A stretch of DNA of 64,000 nucleotides from Chlorobiota bacterium (GTDB lineage: Bacteria > Bacteroidota > Chlorobiia > Chlorobiales > Chlorobiaceae): assembly GCA_016866305.1 (NCBI GenBank), contig VGMX01000006.1, forward strand, positions 1-64,000. The letters run 5' to 3'. Below the pieces are notes generated by a model that was given only the letters and a program-made list of their open reading frames with translations, made no database searches and was not told the DNA's origin. Shown here one piece after another: positions 32,424 through 34,258 of the stretch. The translations under genes and the position numbers were made by a program. Position 1 is the first letter of the stretch. Each line of letters starts with the position of its first letter.

Positions 32424-32470
32424 GCTAAACTTTATTTTTCGGAAAAGATCCAGTTAATCCATTGTACAGC

Positions 32471-32920
32471 ATGAGCAAGACGTTAAGTTTCAAAACATAT
32501 TCGGCAAAGCCTGCGGAAGTTGATCGGAAGTGGTATATCGTTGATGCCGAAGGCCAGGTTCTCGGAAGAATGGCGGCTGAAATCGCCAGGGTTCTCAGGG
32601 GCAAACACAAGGCGCAGTTCACTCCGCACATCGATACCGGAGACTTCATTATCGTGACCAATGCGGAGAAGGTGGCGCTCAGCGGCAAGAAAGTGGAGTA
32701 CAAATCCTATTTCCACCACTCTCACTATCCGGGTGGAGTGAAGATCGATCATGTCAAGGATCTTCTGAAGAAAAAGCCGGAAAAAGTCATTGAGCACGCA
32801 GTGTGGGGAATGCTCCCGCATAACAACCTCGGTCGCCAGCTGTTCAAGAAACTCAAGGTCTATGCCGGTTCGGAGCATCCGCACGCTGCGCAGTGCCCCG
32901 CTGAACTGAAAGTTAACTAA
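32471..32920 (+). CDS. rplM: 50S ribosomal protein L13
   Basis: [28 protein letters not shown]. Confidence 0.96.
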
Positions 32921-32938: not shown

Positions 32939-33328
32939 ATGAAAGAGGTTATCGATACCGTAGGACGCCGTAAAACCTCGGTGGCAAGAGTGTTCATGAC
33001 TCCGGGAAAAGGCCGGATCATCATCAACAAGCTCCCGGTGGAAGAGTATTTCAAGGATGAGGTGAAGCGCAGCAAGGCTCTCAGGCCGCTTGCCCTGACC
33101 GAAAAGACAGAAGAGTTCGATATCAAGGTGAATGTTCAGGGAGGCGGGCTCAGCGGCCAGACCGGAGCGGTCAGTCTTGCCATTGCCCGCGCGCTTACCG
33201 AGTTCGACGAAACGGTCCGTCCGGCCCTGAAAACCGAGAAACTGCTCACCAGGGATCCCCGTATGGTCGAGCGGAAGAAGTTCGGACGCAAGAAGGCCCG
33301 CAAACGCTTCCAGTTCTCCAAACGCTGA
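32939..33328 (+). CDS. rpsI: 30S ribosomal protein S9
   Basis: [20 protein letters not shown]-terminus, C-terminal FQFSKR. Confidence 0.97.
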
Positions 33329-33370
33329 TTTTTACGTTTTTTATATTTTCAGTTCAGTAAACATCCCGCA

Positions 33371-33461
33371 TACCGTGCCATTCCGGAGCAGTTCCGGATA
33401 AGGCACTGCGGAAGTGTCCGGTGCCTCGGGGTACCGGATCCCGCAGTGTAACGGCACGGTA
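33371..33461 (+). ncRNA. Candidate structured leader RNA in the rpsB 5' UTR
   Basis: P1 TACCGTGCC/GGCACGGTA (9 bp), P2 TCCGGA/TCCGGA with 5-nt loop, P3 CACTGCGG/CCGCAGTG (8 bp) continuing as P3b TCCGGT/ACCGGA; ends 32 nt before the rpsB ATG. Confidence 0.75.
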
Positions 33462-33493
33462 GAGGTTCCAACTAAAACAACAGGAAGACAGCC

Positions 33494-34258
33494 ATGTCAC
33501 AGCAGTTTCAGCTTGAAGATATGCTCCGGGCAGGAGTGCACTTCGGCCACCTCGCCCGCCGCTGGTGCCCGAAAATGAAACCCTACATCTTCATGGAGAA
33601 AAACGGTGTTCACATCATCGACCTCCAGAAAACCGTCGTCCTCGCCGACGAGGCGCTCAGGGCCCTTGAAGCCATCGCTTCAACCGGCCGTGAAATCATG
33701 TTCGTCGGCACGAAAAAACAGGCAAAGCACATCATCGCCGAAGAGGCTGAACGTGCAGGTATGCCTTACGTTTGCGAGCGGTGGCTCGGCGGCATGCTGA
33801 CCAACTTTTCGACCATCCGCCAGAGCATCCGCCGCATGAATGCCATCGACCGGATGGAGACCGACGGCACCTTCGACATGATCACCAAGAAAGAACGTCT
33901 CATGCTTGCCCGCGAGCGCGAGAAGCTCATGAGGATTCTTGGCGGCATCGCCACCATGAACCGGCTTCCCGCCGCACTGTTCGTGGTCGATATCAAGAAA
34001 GAGCATATCGCTATCAAGGAAGCCCGTTCGCTCGGCATTCCCATCTTCGCAATGGTTGATACCAACTGCGATCCCGAAACCGTGGACTACGTCATTCCCG
34101 CCAACGACGACGCCATCCGTTCCATCAAGCTGATGGTCAAGGCAGCCGCCGATACGGTCGTCAACGCCCGTGCGCTGAAGGTCGAGCAGGAAGTGCTTGC
34201 CGGCATGGACTCGGAGGAGGGACCCGAAGAGGAGGAAGGCGAGGAGATCGCTGAATAG
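33494..34258 (+). CDS. rpsB: 30S ribosomal protein S2
   Basis: [24 protein letters not shown] and C-terminal acidic tail. Confidence 0.97.

Follow-up and report, generated by a model that had tools for sequence, protein, structure and literature searches.

Directly upstream of rpsB, in the 64,000-nucleotide stretch analysed here (the window; positions 1 to 64,000 of contig VGMX01000006.1, Chlorobiota bacterium), lies a structured RNA that we read as the Chlorobi form of the bacterial rpsB (S2) leader, a cis-acting element for feedback of ribosomal protein S2 on its own gene. We give this reading a probability of roughly 0.85. An initial annotation had proposed a structured RNA in the rpsB 5' UTR, and the covariation, the position before rpsB and the core typical of the rpsB motif indicate that an S2 autoregulatory leader is indeed its best interpretation. 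The same annotation took the leader to be lineage-specific and of independent origin. This part was not supported, as the diagnostic core and a pseudoknot are common to the rpsB motif and to t44, and covariance models link them in both directions.

The genes around the element are all encoded on the plus strand, in the order rplM (32462-32920), rpsI (32939-33328), leader, rpsB (33494-34258) and tsf. The parts of the locus are listed below. Invariance and two-sided changes refer to a covariation set of 63 distinct trimmed sequences from Chlorobiaceae, and R1 is a covariance model built from Chlorobiaceae leaders alone, whose match in the window is the single one in the window's genome.

33367-33473, plus strand: whole S2 (rpsB) leader element; R1 match at 33360-33475, E 1.6e-25
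33367-33370, plus strand: C + GCA, 5' side of a 3x3 internal loop, consensus CRCA; C and CA invariant (63/63)
33371-33379, plus strand: P1 5' strand; two-sided changes in 7/9 pairs, 94% of cells paired
33382-33398, plus strand: P2 hairpin (33382-33387/33393-33398); two-sided changes in 5/5 pairs, 97% of cells paired
33403-33411, plus strand: inner stem (P3) 5' strand, partner 33441-33449; two-sided changes in 5/7 pairs
33412-33415, plus strand: 4-nt bulge AAGU, its last 3 nt the pseudoknot 5' strand; GU invariant (63/63)
33416-33439, plus strand: upper stem-loop (P3b, 33416-33425/33430-33439, loop TCGG); two-sided changes in 7/9 pairs
33441-33449, plus strand: inner stem 3' strand, from fold and covariation
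33453-33461, plus strand: P1 3' strand, from fold and covariation
33462-33465, plus strand: GAGG, 3' side of the internal loop and closing G; last G invariant (63/63)
33470-33473, plus strand: AACU, pseudoknot 3' strand; almost invariant in Chlorobiaceae, with compensatory changes in relatives
33482-33485, plus strand: Shine-Dalgarno-like AGGA, from the sequence, outside the folded structure
33494-34258, plus strand: rpsB (ribosomal protein S2), with tsf next downstream

On the rpsB strand the leader folds at -66 kcal/mol, compared with -42.3 +/- 3.9 kcal/mol for dinucleotide shuffles (z = -6.1; 0/200 as good). Sequence and fold together reproduced exactly the coordinates first proposed for P1, P2 and P3, and the latter (33404-33411/33441-33448) is extended by a G-U pair, 33403/33449. 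The upper stem P3b is present as well, longer than the 33417-33422/33433-33438 first described. What had been called an asymmetric internal loop between P3 and P3b is really the 4-nt bulge AAGU facing a single nucleotide, C33440, and followed by the G33416-U33439 pair that opens the upper stem. Two features had been missed. One is the invariant pair C33367-G33465, which closes the 3x3 internal loop GCA (33368-33370) / GAG (33462-33464) below P1; the other is a pseudoknot between bulge and 3' extension, 33413-33415 x 33471-33473 (AGU x ACU), which ends 9 nt upstream of the Shine-Dalgarno-like AGGA in the window. Two candidate helices were dropped: an outer helix UUC/GAA beside C33367-G33465, which fails in many sequences, and an alternative hairpin GG-AAGUGU-CC within P3, where sequence inspection and covariation identify the nested stem as the covarying one.

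Scans of 33200-33520 returned neither a terminator-like nor a sigma70-like promoter site. The T-rich segment 33329-33356 between the rpsI stop and the leader, which is T-rich in many relatives too, could be a spacer or a promoter of a type other than the sigma70 consensus; no transcription-start map for Chlorobi was found in the literature. At the other end of the element (33466-33486), the window and its nearest relatives (L001-L005) have a UUCC behind GAGG with the potential to pair with a GGAA in the Shine-Dalgarno region, a possibility that is not conserved elsewhere.

The initial annotation had named compensatory substitutions and presence in sister species as checks on its proposal, and both came out in favour of a conserved RNA. 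Compensatory substitutions are abundant: two-sided changes were found in 24 of the 34 pairs, compared with 12.3 +/- 1.6 after shuffling (0/500 shuffles), while 95.7% of cells are paired (86.5 +/- 0.4 shuffled) and the covariation score is 0.332 (0.164 shuffled). Sliding the register by 1-3 columns lowers pairing to 31-43%. The unpaired CRCA, AAGU, GAGG and AACU are nearly invariant in the same 63 sequences. That G33416-U33439 is G-U in 63/63 sequences and never turns Watson-Crick suggests that the conserved object is an RNA rather than a DNA palindrome. As for sister species, the structure occurs in every examined genome with an intact rpsB upstream region. Of 86 Chlorobiaceae genomes, 79 yielded an S2 gene, and in the 74 whose upstream sequence could be read the rpsI-rpsB gap is 133-185 nt throughout; the element lies directly before rpsB in each of these gaps (74/74).

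The pseudoknot is nearly invariant within Chlorobiaceae, and its compensatory support comes from relatives. In a wider alignment of 88 sequences, whose model did not include the pseudoknot, the middle pairs are AGU/ACU in most sequences, with GGU/ACC in L109, L114 and L150 and GGU/ACU in another four. Seven of the 88 sequences have a fourth pair of G-C type and four others one of A-U type, there are two further U-A cells, and the rest have none. GAGU/ACUC is among the compensatory types, and across Chlorobi and relatives the pseudoknot is 3-4 pairs long.

How far the leader extends was followed with two covariance models. With strict filters R1 matches 84 of the 98 genomes of the class, and with filters off it recovers leaders of order relatives missed at first (33-56 bits); the leader is present in 12/12 of the order relatives examined outside Chlorobiaceae. 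Most genomes without an R1 match are assemblies in which S2 is not complete or the sequence upstream of it is lacking. In a 248-genome sample of the phylum, R1 matches outside the order were found in two genomes, G109 and G227, both directly before rpsB. Upstream of rpsB it has matches in a KSB1 bacterium (6e-6), in a contig from Clostridia (1.6e-5) and in two MAGs, one of Bacteroidetes (5e-5) and one of Ignavibacteriae (1e-3), and it matches rpsB leaders of other Bacteroidota at 4e-8 to 5e-5; in a 95 kb search, all R1 matches with E < 1 lie just upstream of rpsB. On the E. coli leader its score is weak (12.6 bits); no other position in 1.1 kb scores higher, and the match is in register.

The second model, R2, was trained on 13 leaders from Firmicutes and a single desulfuromonad group, with no Bacteroidota and no E. 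coli among them. It matches E. coli at 2e-8, exactly over t44, and further matches Ignavibacteriae L130 (2e-15), L109 (3e-14) and L110 (7e-14) as well as KSB1 (1e-9). On the Chlorobiaceae leaders themselves R2 reaches only about 8-11 bits, a level to be expected if the model penalises the P2 insertion. Given this low score, the link between Chlorobiaceae and the wider family is transitive, via L109, L110, L126, L130 and L150; R1 and R2 matches meet on these five loci and on L162. A descriptor based on E. coli and Chlorobi for the core they share recognises sites upstream of rpsB in many members of Clostridia, Bacilli and gammaproteobacteria, compared with 12 hits in 1840 shuffles. One R2 match in a Chlorobiaceae genome lies away from rpsB (G065:C5:19253-19340, E 4e-4) and is either chance or another RNA.

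Whether the element corresponds to a known Rfam family had been left undecided by the initial annotation. Neither at gathering nor at permissive thresholds did a scan assign the leader to a meaningful family, though its core, with an (R)CA / GRG internal loop below P1, matches that of t44 and the rpsB motif. At its gathering cut-off of 44 bits, the t44 family (RF00127) detected the E. coli positive control and had no match above the cut-off in any of the 98 genomes of the class. It calls gammaproteobacterial leaders only and misses those of Clostridia, Ignavibacteria and KSB1 that are picked up by R2. Clear rpsB leaders with an NGGU bulge and an AACC extension are likewise uncalled by t44 in L159, L162, L173, L174, L192, L194, L199 and other Clostridia and Bacilli, some 25-110 nt upstream of rpsB; a single broad model of the family would bring them together. 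Thermotoga maritima, a control genome, has a weak t44 match below the cut-off.

Another aspect regards P2. Most Chlorobiales have the hairpin; L112 shows no evident one, and L109, L126, L130, L150 and E. coli t44 lack it. As judged from these alignments, P2 is the lineage-specific part of the leader, an insertion on an old core. In most Bacteroidia loci examined the rpsI-rpsB gap measures only about 2-50 nt, and neither R1 nor R2 found a leader in the Bacteroidia loci examined. Twelve of these (L129, L131-L133, L135, L137-L140, L142, L143, L145) have a gap of 2-18 nt and no leader, in contrast with Chlorobi and Ignavibacteria. An L13 leader has been described in Bacteroidia for rplM-rpsI and sometimes rpsB (Eckert and Weinberg, PMC7247131), and we infer an apparent loss and replacement of the rpsB leader in this class. 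A possible history, which we offer tentatively, is that the rpsB leader is an old S2 feedback RNA inherited from the Bacteroidota ancestor and kept in the Chlorobi-Ignavibacteria branch, where the Chlorobiales hairpin might add a new contact (to S2, S1 or another factor), and that it was lost in Bacteroidia when S2 passed to the leader fronting rplM-rpsI-rpsB.

Other readings of the element can be weighed against this evidence. A strong GC stem-loop in an intergenic region might serve as a terminator or attenuator of transcription, or be GC-rich sequence that folds by chance. The initial annotation had rightly set the terminator aside for want of a T tract, the scan of 33200-33520 agrees, and the z of -6.1 together with the invariant unpaired bases speaks against chance; covariation refutes this explanation, to which we assign next to no weight. 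The leader might also answer to L13, S9 or EF-Ts, or mark the point at which a polycistronic mRNA is processed between rpsI and rpsB. Its place in the rplM-rpsI-rpsB-tsf cluster would suit such a role, as would the missing recognisable promoter of its own (33200-33520) and the Bacteroidia leader that precedes rplM-rpsI, sometimes rpsB, and is assigned to L13 (PMC7247131). However, the element is always directly before rpsB, it occupies the same place in Clostridia, KSB1 and E. coli despite different upstream genes, and the E. coli ligand is S2 (PMC10931766), all of which makes another ligand or a processing site improbable.

Finally, an S2 leader might have evolved independently in Chlorobi and come to resemble the rpsB motif by convergence on S2 binding. 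Most new ribosomal-protein leaders are confined to one phylum (PMC7247131), Rfam t44 misses the Chlorobi form, P2 is an extra hairpin and R2 hardly scores Chlorobiaceae leaders directly. Against this stand the core elements, which follow in the same order with bulge, G-U pair and pseudoknot in the same place, and the same-phylum intermediates L109, L110, L126 and L130, matched by both R1 and R2 and devoid of P2. We therefore consider convergence unlikely and prefer to regard the element as a member of the bacterial rpsB leader family.

For this rpsB leader a mechanism can be proposed by analogy with E. coli, in which S2-dependent repression through the rpsB leader is known (PMC2704228; review PMC10931766). 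From the same system we infer S2 as the ligand, repression as the outcome, a role for S1, and translation rather than transcription as the regulated step; S2 probably shuts off its own production through the Chlorobi leader. The long interrupted stem (outer P1, inner stem, upper stem) would present two recognition sites, namely the CRCA/GAGG internal loop at its base and the pseudoknot formed by the GU-ending bulge and the AACU after P1. Once free S2, joined in E. coli by S1, outstrips the available 16S rRNA, S2 would bind and stabilise the pseudoknotted fold, which, being directly upstream of the ribosome binding site, would reduce initiation on rpsB. Through coupling, tsf might be lowered too.

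The S2 leader, represented in Rfam only as the gammaproteobacterial t44, hence reaches into Bacteroidota. We found no description of the Chlorobi form in the open-access literature, and it is absent from Rfam 15; the new points are the covarying P2 insertion in most Chlorobiales, the occurrence of the motif in this branch and its apparent loss in Bacteroidia. Compensatory changes across phyla are now available for the pseudoknot and the two conserved loops, which are the parts most likely to touch S2. Chlorobi and Ignavibacteria, which keep the rpsI-rpsB leader, and the Bacteroidia, most of which (among those examined) closed the gap, offer a testable contrast, and a covariance model is ready for annotation.

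Four known systems invite comparison. The S6:S18 leader of Chlorobi (PMC7247131) is a ribosomal-protein leader of the same lineage; it precedes rpsF and was unmatched in the window in the Rfam scan. The L13 leader of Bacteroidia (PMC7247131) shares the phylum and the syntenic rplM-rpsI(-rpsB) cluster, but is listed for rplM, rpsI and sometimes rpsB, has another ligand assigned, and no Rfam family match was obtained in the window. The rpsB motif (Meyer et al. 2009, PMC2704228) is far closer: it lies directly before rpsB, with a long interrupted P1, a top stem after a junction or bulge, and a pseudoknot that joins the 3' extension following P1 to the junction or bulge strand ahead of the top stem. 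That paper reports 3 pseudoknot pairs for Firmicutes, compared with 3-4 in the Chlorobi set; its taxa list is without Chlorobi, Ignavibacteria and KSB1, and its P2 apparently sits elsewhere than the Chlorobiales P2, which lies between outer P1 and inner stem. The t44 (tff) RNA of E. coli (RF00127) lacks P2, its stem sequences differ, and its pseudoknot is read as GGGGU/ACCCC (5 pairs) rather than the AGU/ACU of Chlorobi. Nonetheless, the ribosome binding site is outside the structure in both, the E. coli arrangement CACA-P1-GAGG corresponds to C-RCA-P1-GAG-G of the Chlorobi element, a 4-nt bulge followed by a G-U pair is in the same place (GGGU in E. coli, AAGU in Chlorobi), and in each case an AAC-containing stretch after P1 (AACCCC and AACUAAA, respectively) can pair with the bulge.
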